From positions 1-64,000 of the forward strand of contig JACOSL010000004.1 of NCBI GenBank assembly GCA_016179045.1: DNA of 64,000 nucleotides, written 5' to 3'. Position numbers and translations under genes: made by a program. This document shows, in pieces, positions 52,018 through 60,404 of the stretch. The notes below the pieces were generated by a model. That model was not told where the DNA came from and did no database searches. It saw nothing but the letters and a program-made list of their open reading frames with translations. Numbering within the stretch: the stretch's first letter is position 1; each line of letters opens with the position of its first letter. This DNA is from Fimbriimonas ginsengisoli (lineage in GTDB: Bacteria; Armatimonadota; Fimbriimonadia; Fimbriimonadales; Fimbriimonadaceae).

Positions 52018-53781
52018 TCACTGCCCGGTCCCCGCGTTGCCGGCGGCGATGACGACGGGAGGCTCGCGCACGCCGCGCCGGTCGAGCGAGCGCCGCGCAT
52101 TCCGTAACCGCCTGATCAGCCACCGCTTCTGATGGGGAGCGGGCATGCGCTGCGCGAACGCCCTCTTGAACAAGGGCCAGAGGGCCTCCGTTTCGTGCGA
52201 GAGATCGAACACCATCACCCCTTGCGAGGAGGAGCACGCTGCTTGAAGGCAATCGGAGATGGCGGCCTGATCTCCACGAAACGGCAAGAGGTTGATGCCC
52301 GCATACACCCAGGCACGATCGCGGACCGTGCGGCTGGCTAGGGTCGCGGCCGATTCCACGGTCGCCCCGATCGGCGAGGCGCCAACCAGGGCGGCGGCGA
52401 TGGTCGGGGTTGTGTAATAGCATCCCGGGATGAGGAAATCGACGAGATCGCCCACTCCCGCTCGCCGATAGTCGTCGCTCATGAACCAGAAGCCCGCGTC
52501 GAAGTCGGAGGCGGCGTAGTTGACTCCTAGGGCGGGATATTCGCCGTACCACGCGCCGACGTACATCCCGAACTGCAATCGCGGCCTGGCCCGCAACGCC
52601 TCGGCCCGAGCCCGCCGCAGGTAATCACGCAAGCGCGTAGCGCGCCAGTCGATCCAGGCCTGGTAATACGGCCCCGGCTCCATCCCGTGGCCCAGGCTTG
52701 GCGTAACCGTCGCTTGGTACACGTCGTCCGGCCAGCGCAGCTTCTTCCCCACCCGTCGCTCGAACAAGGCACGCGTCGACTGGCTGAAATCGGCTCGTAG
52801 CCCAGCGTAGCGAAAGCGATCGTCGAAAAGCATTCCGTCGATGGCGTATCTCGAGGCCACCTCCCGCACGATCGATAGCTCATAGGCCTGCACGGCGGGG
52901 TCGTTCGGGTTGAGGAGCAATGGAAACTGCTCTTCGGGCCGGTGGGAGATGGGCACGAAAGCGGGCCTCGTCATTAACCGCATGCGCGTGCCGGGCCAAG
53001 CGTGCTCGCGCAAGAACGCGGCCGCGCGTCCTGAGCCTTGCACAACCAGCCCGCCTCGAGGCACGGTCGGCACGCCTCTCCCTCTCCCCCCCAGCTCAAA
53101 GCCGTCCACCACGTAGTGTCCGGCATTGAGCGTCACCGCAAACTCGCATGGCCCCGCCGGCGAGCGCAAGACGGCGAGCGAATCCTGCCCCTCGGCCGGG
53201 TAGTCGAGCGGATCGGCGAGCGGGTATTCGGCGTCGTCGACCGCCCGCAGTATTGGCACAGGCTCGTACAGAACGGTCTGCCACTCGGGGTGCGCGTAGC
53301 CCGGTCCCACCCGGAACAGGCTGTGCCCCTCGCTGAACGCGTTGAGGGACACGAAGAGGCTCAAATGGCGCCGATGGGCTTCTCGGGTCATTGCCGCGAG
53401 CGGATCGAAGCCTGTCGGCATCGTCTTGCCCCGCCACTCCTGGATCTGGGGCGCGATCTTGCTCGGATAGAGAGTCTGTCCCGAGATGGGCTTCACATCG
53501 AACACGATCGTGTTGAAGCCCGCATCGGCGATGTGCGCGGCGAGCGCCGAGATCTTGGCCTTTGAGTTCACCCGATCGAGGTTTGCAGTGCCGTCGATCC
53601 AAATCAGCCGCCCCTGGACGAGGAAGTTCTTAGCCCACTGGGTGGCGAGCGTTCGGCCCGTGGTGAGCCCATCGATCCGGACCGAAGGCAATCCGGGCAG
53701 GGGCGCCGCCCACACGAATCGGTCCTCGATCGGACGATGGCCTTGTAGCCCCAGCGAAGCGATCAGCAGAGGCGCGAACAT
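52018..53781 (-). CDS. Exported GHL10-like glycoside hydrolase
   Basis: 587 aa. Short N-terminal hydrophobic signal (MFAPLLIASLGLQG). TIM-barrel landmarks of the GHL10 (DUF187) family: RLIWIDGTANLDRVNSKAKI, AGFNTIVFDVKPISGQTLYP, YAIDGMLFDDRFRYAGL (catalytic-acid area) and LQFGMYVGAWYGEYPALG. A beta domain is inserted at about 190-290. It should cut a glycan outside the cytoplasm; substrate unknown. It starts 4 bases after the small Cys-rich gene stop. Confidence 0.85.
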   Translation of the reverse strand: MFAPLLIASLGLQGHRPIEDRFVWAAPLPGLPSVRIDGLTTGRTLATQWAKNFLVQGRLIWIDGTANLDRVNSKAKISALAAHIADAGFNTIVFDVKPISGQTLYPSKIAPQIQEWRGKTMPTGFDPLAAMTREAHRRHLSLFVSLNAFSEGHSLFRVGPGYAHPEWQTVLYEPVPILRAVDDAEYPLADPLDYPAEGQDSLAVLRSPAGPCEFAVTLNAGHYVVDGFELGGRGRGVPTVPRGGLVVQGSGRAAAFLREHAWPGTRMRLMTRPAFVPISHRPEEQFPLLLNPNDPAVQAYELSIVREVASRYAIDGMLFDDRFRYAGLRADFSQSTRALFERRVGKKLRWPDDVYQATVTPSLGHGMEPGPYYQAWIDWRATRLRDYLRRARAEALRARPRLQFGMYVGAWYGEYPALGVNYAASDFDAGFWFMSDDYRRAGVGDLVDFLIPGCYYTTPTIAAALVGASPIGATVESAATLASRTVRDRAWVYAGINLLPFRGDQAAISDCLQAACSSSQGVMVFDLSHETEALWPLFKRAFAQRMPAPHQKRWLIRRLRNARRSLDRRGVREPPVVIAAGNAGTGQ

Positions 53782-53785
53782 CGGG

Positions 53786-53995
53786 CTAGGGACCCTTTAC
53801 CGCGCCGCTCTCAGGCTGCATTTGCTGGCCGCGGCAGTTCACCAGCCGCTCCCGGTGGTCGTTGAACACGCAGATCGAGCGCAGACCGAGCACGTTCGCC
53901 ACGTTCACCGCCGTCTCCCAGTCGGGCGGGTTGACTTTGCCATCCCTGCATCGGGATGCCTCGCCATCGTATCGTGGACAATCGCGGCAGTACAC
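53786..53995 (-). CDS. Small Cys-rich protein, unknown
   Basis: 69 aa from GTG 53995. Cysteines at 3, 6, 16, 42 and 54 include a CxxC (MYCRDCPRYDG) that could bind metal. The amino-acid pattern (DWETAVNVANVLGLRSICVF) looks like a folded protein, and it is just 4 bases ahead of the GHL10 gene, so I take it as real. Function unknown. Confidence 0.6.
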   Translation of the reverse strand: MYCRDCPRYDGEASRCRDGKVNPPDWETAVNVANVLGLRSICVFNDHRERLVNCRGQQMQPESGAVKGP

Positions 53996-54017
53996 TCGGT
54001 CTTCTCACCCGCCAATC

Positions 54018-55040
54018 ATGGTTCTAGGAGCGCTTCTCGGGTTCGCCCTCGCCGGCACGGCACAGACACCGCCGGTCTCCATATCGTACTCGCAGGGCAG
54101 CTTTATCATCCGCTCAGGCCGCGAAATGGAAGTCGTTCCCGCAAAGCTGGAGACGCACCAGGCGCCCAAGGCGGTCGCCTTCCGGCGAAACAAGACTTAC
54201 GCGGTTTGGGATAGTCGGGGGCTCACCATCCGAGTGGGCTCGGTTGCCAAGAGCTTCCGGTTGCCCGAGCTGGCGGTATCGCCCCGGTTGTCGTCCCGCG
54301 AGCAGATCCTCGAAACGTTGAAGCTCGTCGAAGCGGGCAAGCGCACAAAGGAAGCCTCCGCCCTGTCGGGGGGCAAGCGCCTCGGCAACTGGGCCTACTT
54401 CCTCGCCCGGTGGGACGACACCTCCGGAAAGCCCTGGCTCGAGGCTCTGGCTCGAGTCTCGCTGATCGAATCCAAGCCTGCTTGGCGGTTAGTCGGAAAG
54501 TTCGAAGGCGTATCTCTCGGGCGAGGGAGTATCGACGACCGACTGTATACGCGCGCCGGGAGCTTGGTCGTTGTCGAGCGGTTGGGTGAGGCGTGGGGGG
54601 AGGCGAGCTATTCGCCGACGCTCGGTGCCTTTGGATTCCGGCCGATGGGCAAGGGCCTAGAAGCATTTATGCCGCAAGCGGAGGGAAGAGGGCTATTCGT
54701 CGAGCGAACTGGATATGGGTCGCAGATCGGGGGTGAGGCCGACGGCGGCTCCGGCAGCCGCCACGAACTGATTGAAACCCACGCCAAGATCGAATTCGTT
54801 GACACGCGCCGCCCAATTTTCGCAATTCTCGGCGGGCGTGAGCTGAGAAATGCGGAAACCGGCGCGGCCTACGTCTTGCCCGAGGGCGCGGGCGTTCGCC
54901 GGTGCCGGCGAGGGGTTATCGTTTGGAGCCCGGTCGCCAACCCGACTCATGCCGAGGTCCTTGAACCCGAGCGCTGGTCGGTGCTCGCCACATGGACTCA
55001 GGCGGCGCGCTTGGCAGGCGTGCCGATCGGCCGCAATTGA
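54018..55040 (+). CDS. Exported protein of unknown function
   Basis: 340 aa from ATG 54018. Signal peptide (LGALLGFALAGTAQ). Beta-rich repeats of short strands (KAVAFRRNKTYAVWDSRGLT, RRPIFAILGGRELRNAETG). No family recognised. Its last 43 bases overlap the sigma-factor gene on the other strand. Confidence 0.65.
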   Translation: MVLGALLGFALAGTAQTPPVSISYSQGSFIIRSGREMEVVPAKLETHQAPKAVAFRRNKTYAVWDSRGLTIRVGSVAKSFRLPELAVSPRLSSREQILETLKLVEAGKRTKEASALSGGKRLGNWAYFLARWDDTSGKPWLEALARVSLIESKPAWRLVGKFEGVSLGRGSIDDRLYTRAGSLVVVERLGEAWGEASYSPTLGAFGFRPMGKGLEAFMPQAEGRGLFVERTGYGSQIGGEADGGSGSRHELIETHAKIEFVDTRRPIFAILGGRELRNAETGAAYVLPEGAGVRRCRRGVIVWSPVANPTHAEVLEPERWSVLATWTQAARLAGVPIGRN

Positions 55041-56269
55041 GCGGCCTCGACCATCTCGTGCGCAGTTCTGGCGTCAACTGGGTAGAACGACTGGCCGATT
55101 TCAAGGAGGATGCCGTCGCCCGAAAAGCGCCCCGACATCCACCTTTCGCTCTTGCTGATCAGCCGTTGCCGTACCAACTCGACGTTCGCAGTCGTTGACG
55201 GAAGGATGATCGCGAAGCCCGTCTCGCCGTATCGAGACACCGCGTCGAGGCGCCGCACGTTGTCTTTGAGGAACTCGGCCGCGTCGGCGAGAAACTCCTG
55301 CACGCTCTGCTCGCCGTAGAATTTCTGCATCCGGTCGAGCCCCGAAAAGCGCAGCATCACGAGTGCGACTCCGGAGCCATCGCTTGAGGCGCGGTGCAGC
55401 TCCTCACGCAGTCGCGCGTGGAAGTAGCCTTCGGTGTAGCTTCCGGTAGCGGTGTCGATCACGTCGTAGTCGACCGAGCTGACCTGCCGTCGCAAAAGCC
55501 GATCCTTCTCTTCCTCGGCCGTTAGGATTTTGCGGAGCTTGGTGAGCGACTGTCTTAGGATGTGGGAAACGTAGTTGCATGAGATGCCTAGCTTCGCCGC
55601 GATCTCGGTTTGGTTCATCGCGTCGAAGTGGAAGTGCATGAGAACCTGGCGCTCAAGGTCACGAAGTTGTTTGAGCGCCTGTTCGAGGAGCACCCGGTCT
55701 TCGACCGTCAGCTGCTCAGGGCAGAAGGCGGCGGCGTCGAGCTTGTCCACTTCGCCCATTTCGTCCTCGCCCGGGACGGGCGCATCAAGCGAGGCCACCT
55801 TGAGGGTTTCCTGGGTCTGGAAGATTTCTTGTACCGAGGACTCGCTGATTCCAAGGTCATCGGCTACTTCGCGCGAGGTCGGAGCCCGGCCCAGGGTTTG
55901 CTGAAGGGCGCTCGTGGCGCGGCCAACTTTATGGCGTAGCTCTTGCAACCAGGCGGGATGCCGAATCGTCTGTGCGCGGTCGCGCAGGTAGTGCTTGATC
56001 TCGCCAGCCACTAGGTAAGTGGCGTATGTGTTGAAGCGCACCCCCGCGTTCGGGTCGAACTTCGTCAGGGCGTTCAGGAGGCCGATGAAGCCCACCTGCA
56101 CGAGGTCCTCGAACGGTTCGATGCCGCTGAATTTGCGCGCCGTCCGTTCCACGAGGCTGGCGTATTGGACGATGATCACGTCCTTCAGGTCTGGGCGCGG
56201 ATCGTCCAGGTATCTGAGCACCAGGCTTTCCGCGTCCTGGTGCAGATTCCAATTCTCCGGTGTGCTCAC
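54998..56269 (-). CDS. SigB/F-type sigma factor fused to a degenerate GGDEF domain
   Basis: 423 aa, GTG start. Residues ~28-105: sigma region 2 (FEDLVQVGFIGLLNALTKFD, FNTYATYLVAGEIKHYLRDR). ~108-165: region 3. ~195-250: region 4 with HTH (MNQTEIAAKLGISCNYVSHI). ~265-405: GGDEF fold (DVIDTATGSYTEGYFHARL, SGVALVMLRFSGLDRMQKFY). The signature is GETGF at 348-352 rather than GG(D/E)EF, so synthesis of c-di-GMP is unlikely. The inhibitory-site motif RxxD (R339-D342) is kept at the canonical five-residue distance. Together this suggests a c-di-GMP-binding sigma factor. It follows pilC on the same strand. Confidence 0.88.
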   Translation of the reverse strand: MSTPENWNLHQDAESLVLRYLDDPRPDLKDVIIVQYASLVERTARKFSGIEPFEDLVQVGFIGLLNALTKFDPNAGVRFNTYATYLVAGEIKHYLRDRAQTIRHPAWLQELRHKVGRATSALQQTLGRAPTSREVADDLGISESSVQEIFQTQETLKVASLDAPVPGEDEMGEVDKLDAAAFCPEQLTVEDRVLLEQALKQLRDLERQVLMHFHFDAMNQTEIAAKLGISCNYVSHILRQSLTKLRKILTAEEEKDRLLRRQVSSVDYDVIDTATGSYTEGYFHARLREELHRASSDGSGVALVMLRFSGLDRMQKFYGEQSVQEFLADAAEFLKDNVRRLDAVSRYGETGFAIILPSTTANVELVRQRLISKSERWMSGRFSGDGILLEIGQSFYPVDARTAHEMVEAAQLRPIGTPAKRAA

Positions 56270-56288
56270 TCCGTTGATTCCCCTTAAG

Positions 56289-56378
56289 GGCTGGCGTTCC
56301 GTGCCAGCCTCCCTTCGGCGCTTCCGTTCCGTAGAAGCGCCTCGCTAAACTCTCGGGCGCGGCCCCTCCGGCCGCGCC
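56289..56378 (-). promoter_or_regulatory. Three consecutive hairpins between pilC and the sigma-GGDEF gene
   Basis: Stems GGCTGGC/GCCAGCC (56289-56295, 56303-56309), GGCGCTTC/GAAGCGCC (56317-56324, 56334-56341) and GGCGCGGCC/GGCCGCGCC (56356-56364, 56370-56378). The first two loops share GTTCCGT, that is ACGGAAC in the mRNA. No T run follows, so these are not clear terminators. Confidence 0.7.
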
Positions 56379-56381
56379 AAC

Positions 56382-57587
56382 CTACTTGATGCTCGATACG
56401 AGCTTGAATATCGGCGTCATGATCGAGATCGCGATGAATCCCACGACAACACCCATGAAGATGATCAGCATCGGTTCGATCAGGGAGGTCAATCCTTTGA
56501 CCGTCGCCTCGACTTCGGTGTCGTAGAATTCGGCAACCTTCACCAACATTTCGGGAAGGCGGCCAGATTCCTCGCCTACGTCGATCATGCACGTGACCAT
56601 GGTGGGAAACAGACCGGACTCCTGCAGCGGCACCGAGAGCTTTTGCCCCTCTCGAATGCTCATCCGAGTTTGCTCGATAGCCTCGGCGAGCACCACGTTT
56701 CCGAGCGTCTCGCCCACGATCTCCAGGCTCCTCATCATGGGTACGCCCGAACTGATCAAGGTGCCGAATGTTCGCGAGAAGCGCGCCACGCTCATCTTAA
56801 GCGAGAGCTCTCCCGCGATCGGCACCCTCAGCTTGAACGAGTCGAATTGGTAGCGCCCTTGGGGAGTCTTGATCCAGACCTTCAATGCGAAGAAGGCGCC
56901 GACCATGCCGACGATGATCAGCCACCAATAGGCGGCCATGAAGTCACCGAGCGCGAACAGGCCGGCGGTGATCGGTGGCAGCTCGACGTCCATGCCCGTG
57001 AAGATGTCCTTGAATTTAGGCAAGACGAAGCTGAACAGGGCAAACAGCATTATCTGCGAGAAAATAAGCACGAGGACCGGATAGGTCATCGCACCCTTGA
57101 TCTTTCCCCGAACTTCGGCTTCGTATTCGAGGAAGCCGGCAAGCCGGTCGAGAATCTGGTCGAGGATGCCTCCCAGTTCGGCGGCGCGGATCATGTTTAC
57201 GTACAGTTTGTTGAAAACGGTCGGGTGCTTGAGCATCGCGTCGTTGAGCGAGAGACCACCCTTGACGTCGATCATCACCTGCTCGAGAACTTGCCTGAAC
57301 AAGGGGTCCTTCGCTTGACCGACGAGGATTTCGAGGCAGCGAAGGATCGGGATGCCGGCGTCGATCATTGTGGCGAACTGGCGCGAGAAGACGACGAGCG
57401 CCTTAAGTTTGATCTTCTTGGGTCCGAGCGCGCGGTTCTTCGACTTGCCGCGAACCTCCCGAATGTCGGTGCAATGCATCGACTGGTCTCGGAGCTTGCC
57501 GAGAACGAGTTGTTCGCTATCGGCTTCGATCGTCGCGCGTACGGTGCGCCCGGAGGCGTCGATAGCGGTATAGGCGTAAAACGGCAT
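56382..57587 (-). CDS. pilC: Type IV pilus inner-membrane protein PilC
   Basis: 401 aa from ATG 57587. Two GspF domains (about 68-190 and 270-392), each with membrane helices: FSRQFATMIDAGIPILRCLE, IRAAELGGILDQILDRLAGF, then FSRTFGTLISSGVPMMRSLE and IDVGEESGRLPEMLVKVAEF. PilC is the platform that passes force from the PilB/PilT motors to the pilus base. Far from the pilMNOPQ operon and without pilB/pilT beside it here. GspF is the alternative, but the pil genes in the window favour PilC. Confidence 0.9.
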   Translation of the reverse strand: MPFYAYTAIDASGRTVRATIEADSEQLVLGKLRDQSMHCTDIREVRGKSKNRALGPKKIKLKALVVFSRQFATMIDAGIPILRCLEILVGQAKDPLFRQVLEQVMIDVKGGLSLNDAMLKHPTVFNKLYVNMIRAAELGGILDQILDRLAGFLEYEAEVRGKIKGAMTYPVLVLIFSQIMLFALFSFVLPKFKDIFTGMDVELPPITAGLFALGDFMAAYWWLIIVGMVGAFFALKVWIKTPQGRYQFDSFKLRVPIAGELSLKMSVARFSRTFGTLISSGVPMMRSLEIVGETLGNVVLAEAIEQTRMSIREGQKLSVPLQESGLFPTMVTCMIDVGEESGRLPEMLVKVAEFYDTEVEATVKGLTSLIEPMLIIFMGVVVGFIAISIMTPIFKLVSSIK

Positions 57588-57768
57588 CCGTGTCTTGCTC
57601 CCTTGTCGCAGGGCTCGGCCCATCCTTGGCCGCACCCACCAATAGGGATTCTCGGCTCAGGCGTTTAGGAATCCAACGAGCTTTCCCAGGTTTTTTGCGA
57701 AGAGGCGCTAGGTCTTTGGGTTGGAGCCGCTGACGGCGACCTGCCGGTACGCTGTCCAACGTTAGGAG

Positions 57769-58356
57769 ATGTTTCGCAAGTCTCGAACCGGAATGGTCGA
57801 TGAGGAACTCGGTCGGGCCGACGACGACCTATATTTGCCCGAGGGCGATTCCGTGCCGGAGGGGCCGCCACCGTCGCACCTGGTCGAGGCGGGGACGATC
57901 GCTGCGGTCTTGCTAGCGCTGTTTGCCGCCGACCGGGCGATAGAATTGGCGAGTCACGAGAGGTCGCGCCTAGTCCTTAAGTCGGTCAAGGGCATCGTGC
58001 TCTACGATCTCCGGCCCGCGCTGGCGATTCTGGCCATCCTGTTCTTCGTGTTGCTTCTTCTTGCGCCCCGATTTTCGCGCATCGTCGCGCCACCCGGCCC
58101 ATGGCGGATGGTGAGGCTCGTCATCGGCTCCATCGGGCTGTGGCTGATCCTCGGAGCAGTCATACCGGCTGTCCTGGCGTTTCAAGGCAAGCCGCCAATT
58201 GGATCGCTTGCCCCTTTGGCCGATTTAGTCGAGCCCGAAACAGCCGCCTGGTGGCCGCTGTCGATGGGGGTCGTGCTGCTCGTCATTGCCCGCTGGACCG
58301 CCTACTTGCGATTGCGCCCGGTGGAGGAGCCGGGCGGAGATCAGGGCTGGACATAG
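57769..58356 (+). CDS. Multi-pass membrane protein, unknown
   Basis: 195 aa, three or four membrane segments (about 42-60, 80-100, 112-135, 160-178) after an acidic N-terminus (EELGRADDDLYLPEGD). No family recognised. ATG 57769 follows AGGAG directly; ATG 57793 may be the real start. The 3' end overlaps the deacetylase stop by 16 bases. Confidence 0.6.
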   Translation: MFRKSRTGMVDEELGRADDDLYLPEGDSVPEGPPPSHLVEAGTIAAVLLALFAADRAIELASHERSRLVLKSVKGIVLYDLRPALAILAILFFVLLLLAPRFSRIVAPPGPWRMVRLVIGSIGLWLILGAVIPAVLAFQGKPPIGSLAPLADLVEPETAAWWPLSMGVVLLVIARWTAYLRLRPVEEPGGDQGWT

Positions 58357-59231
58357 GGCTTAACCTTGCCCGCTTCAACTTGATCGAGCCAGTCCGTGAT
58401 GCCGTTTTCGCCCTCAATGCCTTGTATTCGCGGAATCCGGGTTCTGTCGAACGCCGGATCGCCGGCAGGCCGCGAGGGCCCCGCGCCTACGAGCACCACG
58501 GCTGGAATCTCGACCTTGCCCCCCTTCCATTGAAAGCCCCTAAGCAAGCTTTTATCGCGTGGTGACATGCCGTAGGGCAGCGCAAGCGGGGCAATGCCCG
58601 TGCCCAGCCGCGCCAAGATCTGGGCGCCTCCGCCGATCTCCGCCTTGACCTCGTCGTCGCTGAGCCGGTCGAGCCGCCGGTGGGTCATCGTGTGATTGCC
58701 CAGTTCGCAGCCCCAACTTCTGAGCAACGCGACTTTATTGGAAACGAGCGAGCGTTGACCCCAAAGGTTTGGCAGCACGAAGAAGGTCGCCCGAACCGGA
58801 AAATCGGGATGGTGCGTCGCGAAAGCTTGCCAAACGCCGACCGCGCATTCGGGGTCAACACTGCCGTCGGGCAGAATTTGAAACTGACTCGGATGGGCGT
58901 CGTCGAAAGTGATGGCAACCGGCGAAGCGCCCGCGGCGAGGGGCATTTTCCCCGCAATAAACTGCCCGATCGTGATGGGGCGGAACCCCATCTTGTAAAG
59001 TCTCTCCAGATCGCCGCGAAAGCGCGCGATCGAGCGATCCCACCGAGCCTCTTGCGCAGCTATCTTGTGGTACTCGATCACGAACACCCCGCCGTGCAGG
59101 TTGCCGGGGCGGTTGCTCACGCGCGCCAGTACGGGCGTCGTTCTGGCTGCAGTCGTAGCGGACGGCGGGGCTTTACGGGCGCATCCGGCCGTCAGCACCG
59201 CAGCAACAACCAGGGCCGAGCTAACTCGCAT
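58341..59231 (-). CDS. Polysaccharide deacetylase lipoprotein
   Basis: 296 aa. Lipobox VVAAVLTAGCARK, then the NodB fold: AITFDDAHPSQ (catalytic base and metal Asp), RATFFVLPNLWGQ, and GNHTMTHRRLDRLSDDE (metal His pair). It removes acetyl groups from a glycan at the cell surface. Divergent from the DUF4015 gene with only 9 bases between the start codons. Confidence 0.87.
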   Translation of the reverse strand: MRVSSALVVAAVLTAGCARKAPPSATTAARTTPVLARVSNRPGNLHGGVFVIEYHKIAAQEARWDRSIARFRGDLERLYKMGFRPITIGQFIAGKMPLAAGASPVAITFDDAHPSQFQILPDGSVDPECAVGVWQAFATHHPDFPVRATFFVLPNLWGQRSLVSNKVALLRSWGCELGNHTMTHRRLDRLSDDEVKAEIGGGAQILARLGTGIAPLALPYGMSPRDKSLLRGFQWKGGKVEIPAVVLVGAGPSRPAGDPAFDRTRIPRIQGIEGENGITDWLDQVEAGKVKPYVQP

Positions 59232-59240
59232 CGCGCCTGG

Positions 59241-60404
59241 ATTATCCTCGCTCTCACGCTCGTTCCGCTTGGTCTAGGCTGCCGTGGCGGGGCCCCGCCG
59301 GACGCCGCTCGTCCCTCGCCCAAGATCCTTGCTAAGGCAGCGCCCCCGGCGGAAAGCCGCATCATTTTCACCCGCCCTGAGCATGTGCGCGGCATCTATC
59401 TCACCGCATGGTCGGCGGGCAGCGCGCGAAAAATGACCAATACGCTCGCGATGTTGCAGCGCACCGGCCTAAACACGGTCGTGATCGACGTGCGCGATGC
59501 AGGGTTCGTTTACATGAAGACGGGAATCAAGCTCGCCGACGAGAGCCACGCGACCCACAACGCGGTCGCCAAGCCTAAGGACCTGCTAGCACGCCTTGCG
59601 AAAGCGGGCGTGTACCCGATCGCGAGGATCGCGTGCTTTCGCGACCAGTTCGTGCCCAAGGCAAACCCCAAGCTGGCGGTGCTTGATCGCAGGGGCAAAG
59701 TGTGGAAGGACCGTTCGGGCCATAGCTGGCTCGATCCTTATTCCAAGACGAATTGGGACTATCTCGGACAGATCGTCGACTACGCGCTGGAGGTCGGCTT
59801 TCCGGAAATTCAACTCGATTACGTACGGTTTCCGAGCGAGGGCGACCCCGAGAATCAGGTGTTCCCGAGCCGCAGCGCCTACCCCGACCCCAAGGCGCGG
59901 CCCGAGGATGTTATAGCCGCCTTCGCGCAGGCTATCAAGGCGAAAGTGAAGGCTCGCGGCGGCGTGCTCTCGGCCGACGTGTTTGGGATCATCTCCAGCA
60001 CCCAAGATGATCAGGGCATAGGCCAGGAGCTCGAGAAGATCGCCGCCCCCTTCGATCTGATCTGCCCGATGGTGTATCCCTCACACTTTGCCAAGGGCGA
60101 GTACGGCATCGGCGATCCGAATGCGTCGCCCCACGCGATCGTGGTCAAGAGCCTGCTCGACTATCGCAAGCGCCTGCCGGGCAAGAAGATCAGGCCCTGG
60201 CTGCAGGATTTCTCGTTGGGACGGCGCTACGGGGCGAAGGAAGTGCGGGCGCAGATCGACGCGGCGGTGGAGGTGGGCTACAGCGAATTCCTTCTCTGGA
60301 ACGCGGGCAACGTCTACACCGAGGCCGCGCATGCCAAGCAGCCCGCCCTGACCGCGACCGCGGAGCACCCCAAACCTACGACCACACCAAAGACCGGCGC
60401 GTAA
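59241..60404 (+). CDS. DUF4015-type putative glycoside hydrolase, lipoprotein
   Basis: About 387 aa. TIM-barrel landmarks: VRGIYLTAWSAGSARKMTN, LNTVVIDVRDAGFVYMKTGI, FPEIQLDYVRFPSEGDPE, SADVFGIISSTQDDQGIGQ, DLICPMVYPSHFA. The N-terminus reads IILALTLVPLGLGCRG, a good lipobox, but no ATG, GTG or TTG exists in frame before it; I place the start at ATT 59241. GTG at about 59388 would lose the signal. The longer upstream frame is antisense to the deacetylase. A rare start codon or a sequence error is possible. Confidence 0.78.
   Translation: MILALTLVPLGLGCRGGAPPDAARPSPKILAKAAPPAESRIIFTRPEHVRGIYLTAWSAGSARKMTNTLAMLQRTGLNTVVIDVRDAGFVYMKTGIKLADESHATHNAVAKPKDLLARLAKAGVYPIARIACFRDQFVPKANPKLAVLDRRGKVWKDRSGHSWLDPYSKTNWDYLGQIVDYALEVGFPEIQLDYVRFPSEGDPENQVFPSRSAYPDPKARPEDVIAAFAQAIKAKVKARGGVLSADVFGIISSTQDDQGIGQELEKIAAPFDLICPMVYPSHFAKGEYGIGDPNASPHAIVVKSLLDYRKRLPGKKIRPWLQDFSLGRRYGAKEVRAQIDAAVEVGYSEFLLWNAGNVYTEAAHAKQPALTATAEHPKPTTTPKTGA

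Follow-up and report, generated by a model that had tools for sequence, protein, structure and literature searches.

A sigma factor fused to a degenerate GGDEF domain, a candidate c-di-GMP receptor, is encoded next to pilC in Armatimonadota

Degenerate GGDEF domains serve as c-di-GMP receptors in PopA of Caulobacter and PelD of Pseudomonas, and PopA also acts in concert with turnover under ClpXP control, the substrate being a transcription regulator (PMC12564702, PMC10333796). In Streptomyces, a c-di-GMP dimer controls an alternative sigma factor in the RsiG-sigma WhiG system (PMC10519070). In the literature reached, c-di-GMP acts on sigma factors only via other proteins. An earlier description of a sigma-GGDEF fusion was not found in the full-text literature searched, which left most subscription journals outside reach, and public sequence databases very likely already contain the protein described here without comment. 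The Armatimonadota are a little-studied phylum with few cultured members.

We analyzed a 64,000-nucleotide stretch of the Fimbriimonas ginsengisoli genome (the window), which encodes a SigB/SigF-like sigma factor with complete regions 2 to 4, from which one long helix leads into a GGDEF domain with a well-predicted fold. We consider it likely that this protein is a group-3 sigma factor that carries a catalysis-dead GGDEF domain as an on-board c-di-GMP receptor and steers a pilus or surface program.

Domain composition, predicted fold, and spread of the fusion protein

The gene and the domains of its product are located as follows.

54998-56269, minus strand: sigma-GGDEF fusion protein, 423 amino acids, with a GTG start at 56269 and a stop codon at 55000-54998
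55973-56173, minus strand: sigma-70 region 2, residues 33-99 (Pfam PF04542, 1.4e-14)
55760-55942, minus strand: sigma-70 region 3, residues 110-170 (Pfam PF04539, 1.3e-12)
55529-55678, minus strand: sigma-70 region 4, residues 198-247 (Pfam PF04545, 4.9e-12)
55469-55579, minus strand: continuous helix, residues 231-267, running from sigma region 4 to the GGDEF domain (secondary structure of the AlphaFold2 model)
55040-55459, minus strand: degenerate GGDEF domain, residues 271-410 (Pfam PF00990, 8e-17; model pLDDT mostly >90)

All four Pfam matches exceeded the curated cutoffs, and sigma regions 2, 3, and 4 were all present and in order, with many invariant columns within these regions in the alignment of orthologs. 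The sigma part was aligned end to end over regions 2, 3, and 4 with the NCBIfam SigBFG subfamily (TIGR02980, 3.3e-55), but its score of 187.2 bits fell below the curated cutoff of 234.35 bits, so the protein is related to this subfamily and is no formal member of it. The AlphaFold2 model, built from an input of 78 sequences, had a mean pLDDT of 86 and values of about 92 to 97 in the GGDEF core. Because the pTM of the whole fusion was 0.43, it is uncertain how the sigma part and the GGDEF domain are placed with respect to each other, and no interface between them can be read from the model. When the model was compared with the PDB by Foldseek, the matches were sigma factors and GGDEF domains, including 4urs with a TM score of 0.75 (normalized to the target) and an rmsd of 3.0. 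The closest match of the sigma part was Staphylococcus aureus SigB (8x6g), and the RsiG-WhiG structures 6pfj and 6pfv were also among the matches. The original prediction, which had placed a GGDEF domain together with sigma regions 2, 3, and 4 in one chain at 54998-56269, was correct in position, strand, and frame and was confirmed by the Pfam domain search. The GGDEF fold of the C-terminal part, which it had named beforehand as refutable, held in both the model and the Foldseek matches.

A search for homologs with the same fusion, proposed together with that prediction, found them in most sampled Armatimonadota. Among 101 genomes (its own and those of relatives), 93 had a match at E <= 1e-30, some of those from more distant families spanning the sigma part alone, and 77 of the 78 good-quality genomes were among them; mostly one full-length copy was present per genome. 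In a broader sample of 201 Armatimonadota genomes, most families had whole-profile matches, as before largely a single one in each genome, and some lineages were without the fusion. Named records with the fusion belonged to Fimbriimonadaceae, Fimbriimonadales, Chthonomonadales/Chthonomonas, and other Armatimonadota, and one of them is from a cultured relative, Chthonomonas calidirosea (L158). In a midpoint-rooted tree of the sigma part, long branches included, 29 fused proteins were located on one side of a single branch with a support of 100/99, and the nonfused sigma factors were on the opposite side. The simplest reading of these sequences is one fusion event followed by mainly vertical descent, and recent or repeated fusions were rejected because the tree holds a single fused group. 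The curated Pfam matches and the orthologs across the phylum led us to reject chance or a frame artifact, and an assembly artifact was excluded because independent genomes throughout Armatimonadota encode the fusion as one unbroken ORF. The contig scan for further fusions used family-specific peptides, which independent fusions outside Armatimonadota would escape. Separately, a 271-kb contig (JADZEW010000016.1, locus L136) filed as a Methanoregulaceae archaeon MAG encoded the fusion at 60% identity, adjoining pilC in the arrangement seen in Fimbriimonadaceae. This contig looks like mis-binned Armatimonadota.

The C-terminal Ala-Ala and the linkage to pilC

The fusion protein ends in a short conserved tail.

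55001-55006, minus strand: C-terminal Ala-Ala, proposed degron (74 of 79 orthologs)

Two of the other five orthologs ended in Val-Ala, and one of the remaining three was a truncated frame (L125). Among other ORFs of at least 200 amino acids at the same loci, only 7 of 568 (1.2%) ended in Ala-Ala. The residues before the Ala-Ala were unconserved, the length of the tail was variable among orthologs, and residues 419-423 had a pLDDT of <50, as for a flexible tail. The nonfused sister sigma factors (L067-L072) had no Ala-Ala end, and two fused proteins at loci without an adjacent pilC (L133 and L138) had lost the tail. We liken this end to ssrA tags and, by analogy, infer a ClpXP-type degron. The degron of CtrA, a ClpXP substrate, has been listed as DPNEQVNAA (PMC8138137). 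An alternative that is compatible with the proposed on-board receptor is that c-di-GMP gates the exposure of the Ala-Ala to ClpXP and thereby sets the amount of the sigma factor, not its activity. The distribution and disorder of the tail agree with this alternative, as does the precedent of the dead-GGDEF receptor PopA with the ClpXP substrate CtrA (PMC12564702, PMC8138137), but the tail might act constitutively, with no relation to the ligand, and we regard ligand-gated proteolysis as somewhat doubtful.

Upstream of the fusion gene, three features were identified.

56382-57635, minus strand: pilC, type IV pilus platform protein (PF00482, 3.7e-61), whose true start is likely the ATG at 57590
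56270-56381, minus strand: pilC-sigma intergenic stretch with three stable GC-rich hairpins (fold z = -2.9, no T-run)
57648-57677, minus strand: conserved promoter-like element GTTGGA-N16-CCGAGAAT (motif sampling of pilC upstream regions)

The fusion gene was expected just after pilC, and it indeed follows pilC on the same strand after a gap of 112 nt. At 59 of the 68 loci with enough sequence, pilC was directly upstream on the same strand, with a median gap of about 104 nt. The minus strand of the intergenic stretch contained no terminator-like site, and the hairpins may uncouple the expression of pilC and the sigma gene. At one locus (L140), the gene order was secretin, PilB, PilT, PilC, and sigma-GGDEF (the first three named by eye), and a PilB/PilT-like cluster lay beside pilC at several further loci. 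The genomes also encode a second PilC paralog of about 42% identity. Within one genus (g20), three genomes with the fusion (G019, G055, and G243) have the cognate pilC at 68 to 71%; four near-complete genomes that do not encode the fusion (G198, G043, G207, and G212) have only PilC paralogs at about 41% or less. Seven of the eight relatives without a fusion match were also without the cognate pilC, and in the eighth (G086) this gene is close to the end of a contig; part of this joint absence is missing sequence, because six of the eight are <87% complete. The link to the pilus is not absolute, because a few genomes (G026, G046, G028, and G047; g27 and g29) keep the fusion without the cognate pilC class.

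Several other genes surround the locus. A convergent ORF at 53862-55040 (plus strand) overlaps the fusion gene tail to tail by 43 bases (54998-55040); it had no Pfam match, and its cluster is a neighbor at 12 loci. Genes for glycosyl-hydrolase-like proteins (GHL10/DUF4985 and DUF4015) are at 52018-53781 (minus strand) and 58680-60404 (plus strand), and a polysaccharide deacetylase gene at 58341-59231 (minus strand) also flanks the locus. In addition, PilB of the pil-sigma operon (L140, 1751-3478) has an N-terminal extension that by eye resembles an MshEN domain, which is a c-di-GMP binding module in other bacteria.

Unsupervised motif sampling was applied to 43 pilC upstream regions from loci where pilC appears to head the transcript. 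The resulting 24-nt pattern had an information content of 14.7 bits, compared with 8.2 to 8.6 bits in three control sets shuffled by single bases. Sites of the CCGANAAT type were located within 140 bp in 35 of 49 regions, compared with 7.5% of background stretches, a contrast that is inflated by the relatedness of the sequences and by the writing of the pattern after the sites had been viewed. Another block, about GGAa, lay 16 to 19 nt upstream of these sites, and this spacing was kept. In the window, the element at 57648-57677 was the top site (23.7, compared with 14.7 for the next) under a matrix built partly from that element, and its exact pattern occurred twice in the genome. The -10 part resembles the sigma-28/SigD consensus, GCCGATAA. 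Because the genome also encodes a WhiG/FliA-type sigma factor (L005), either sigma factor could read this element, and autoregulation of the fusion sigma through it is possible. A consensus scan found no sigma-70 housekeeping promoter near the locus, and Rfam found only a tRNA in the window, by which we rejected the presence of a c-di-GMP riboswitch or another known RNA close to pilC. Deriving a regulon from the upstream motif was also abandoned, with about one degenerate match per genome and some matches before flagellar genes (FliD-like, L303).

Elements of the pilC type were also observed elsewhere. In three g20 genomes with the fusion, one is located 22 nt before the TTG start of the ORF of an exopolysaccharide sugar-transferase-like gene (L284, L285, and L290), which has no true ortholog in the fusion-lacking g20 genomes (best 39 to 43%). 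Another precedes the gene of a GAF/histidine-kinase-like protein in genome G270 (L282), which ends in Val-Ala-Ala. The fusion gene may ride the pilC operon for transcription only and have as its regulon another surface trait, for example exopolysaccharide, as the similar -35/-10 pattern before the sugar-transferase-like gene and the persistence of the fusion in g27 and g29 genomes would allow. The adjacency to pilC and the joint absence in the four g20 genomes argue against such a regulon, which we judge unlikely.

A degenerate active site and a retained I-site

The residues of the candidate on-board receptor are located as follows.

55214-55228, minus strand: dead A-site GETGF, residues 348-352
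55244-55255, minus strand: predicted I-site R339-x-x-D342 (RRLD, residues 339-342; aligned with PleD NVRAID)
55391-55393, minus strand: R293, secondary I-site arginine (PleD alignment; 78 of 79 orthologs versus 20 of 73 canonical GGDEF domains)
55163-55165, minus strand: R369, third I-site arginine (75 of 79 orthologs versus 57 of 73 canonical GGDEF domains)

The original prediction had described a lost catalytic motif with RxxD five residues before it. RRLD does end five residues N-terminal of GETGF, and the conservation of RxxD among orthologs, on which the prediction could have failed, was complete. The metal-site Asp positions 307 and 309 are R and S in the fusion and are unconserved in the 79 orthologs, so that neither GG(D/E)EF nor the metal-binding Asp of an active diguanylate cyclase was found. 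The alignment with PleD was free of gaps and placed VKRA on LHRA (R293) and NVRAID on NVRRLD (R339 and D342). We take R293, R339, and D342 to be PleD R313, R359, and D362 and R369 to be at the position of PleD R390.

The 79 fused GGDEF domains were compared with 75 other GGDEF domains from one group of genomes. In the fused set, GG(D/E)EF was present in 0/79, RxxD in 79/79, and RxxD with R293 in 78/79; the corresponding numbers for the other domains were 73/75, 52/75, and 9/75. R339, D342, R293, and R369 occurred all together in 74 of 79 fused domains but in 8 of 75 other domains; the orthologs within each set share descent, and these counts are therefore not independent trials. A wider set that included distant families had RxxD in 60/61; of the single residues, 60/61 kept R339, and D342 and R293 were each present in 61/61. 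The I-site residues were common to fused proteins down to about 35% identity, and the catalytic residues had drifted. Ordinary GGDEF domains often have RxxD as well, so that the weight of the argument is on the residues conserved jointly once catalysis was lost: RxxD alone was moderately enriched over the 75 domains compared, and the joint conservation of RxxD and R293 was strong, by which we rejected RxxD as mere background. R369 is weak evidence, since it is frequent in canonical domains. In these sequences, loss of the A-site with retention of the I-site is the pattern expected of selection for c-di-GMP binding without catalysis. In addition, R286, E289, and E290 are near-invariant in the fused proteins and atypical for cyclases. 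They share a helix with R293, where they may point to an additional contact with a ligand or between domains.

The GGDEF domain could instead bind nothing and serve for dimerization or for the docking of a partner such as an anti-sigma factor, with RxxD kept for structure. D342 and R346 are in a conserved GGDEF turn (56/73 and 73/73 in canonical domains, respectively), and their conservation may be partly structural. This explanation is quite improbable, as R339 (79/79 in fused versus 59/73 in canonical domains) and R293 were preferentially kept while the active-site residues drifted.

Returning to c-di-GMP as the proposed ligand of the fused domain, five GGDEF domains besides the fusion are encoded in the genome, canonical ones included (L037 and L038, with GG(D/E)EF), and six HD-GYP-type and two PilZ matches were found. 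Because active GGDEF, HD-GYP, and PilZ genes are present, c-di-GMP is very probably made and used in the cell. It is highly unlikely that the pocket binds another nucleotide, such as 3',3'-cGAMP, pGpG, or a guanosine tetraphosphate: the I-site residues alone leave the ligand unfixed, studies of cyclic-dinucleotide signaling in Armatimonadota were not found in the literature searched, and R286, E289, and E290 could mean an altered pocket, but the four canonical c-di-GMP contacts are kept together in most fused proteins, and the genome has ordinary c-di-GMP genes.

Proposed mechanism and comparison with known systems

In the proposed mechanism, c-di-GMP from the separate active cyclases of the cell would bind the I-site (R339/D342 and R369). 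Binding would probably cross-link two GGDEF domains, because R293, the arginine for the other half of the intercalated c-di-GMP dimer, is also kept; alternatively, the long helix that follows region 4 would let the GGDEF domain dock onto the sigma part of its own chain. The ligand would then alter how readily the sigma factor reaches core RNA polymerase or the -35 element and change the transcription of a type IV pilus/surface program, the pilC operon or cooperating genes included. The Ala-Ala tail would make the sigma factor short-lived through ClpXP-type proteolysis, possibly in one ligand state only. The binding, dimerization, proteolysis, and regulon in this mechanism are proposed from sequence. 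By analogy with RsiG-WhiG, we lean weakly toward inhibition of the fusion sigma by c-di-GMP. More tentatively, c-di-GMP might bridge two sigma factors, bound to R339/D342 in the first molecule and to R293 in the second, and so switch promoters, with the Ala-Ala degron clearing the protein upon a change of signal; we would call this bridged form possible. R293, the near-universal Ala-Ala end, the phylum-wide single origin, and the promoter element before pilC go beyond the original prediction.

If true, a c-di-GMP site on the sigma factor itself, maintained by selection in most of the phylum, would link this second messenger to promoter choice by the shortest route known. If the bridged reading is also true, most of the phylum would use one fused protein instead of an anti-sigma cascade. 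The fusion would offer a starting point for the study of gene control in Armatimonadota, and it yields direct and simple predictions at R293, R339, D342, and the Ala-Ala tail.

The fusion shares its fold and the layout of its I-site, the R313 position included, with PleD and WspR but is without the catalytic residues and the REC domain. It differs from the SigB/SigF/SigG family by its candidate receptor domain and by two sequence features, an invariant PAW that follows region 2 and NYVS, conserved within region 4. With PopA and PelD it shares the GGDEF fold, the lost A-site, and the kept RxxD. In those proteins, the domain is on REC or GAF/membrane domains and the output is proteolysis or polysaccharide export, whereas in the fusion one chain carries both the domain and its output, a sigma factor. 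In RsiG-WhiG, c-di-GMP is held between the sigma factor and a separate coiled-coil-motif anti-sigma factor with two EXXXSXXRXXXQXXXD motifs; the fusion model needs no such partner, and the predicted c-di-GMP site is, unlike that of RsiG-WhiG, a GGDEF I-site. As judged from the sequences compared, the receptor module is a known one, and the sigma output, which extends phylum-wide, appears to be new.
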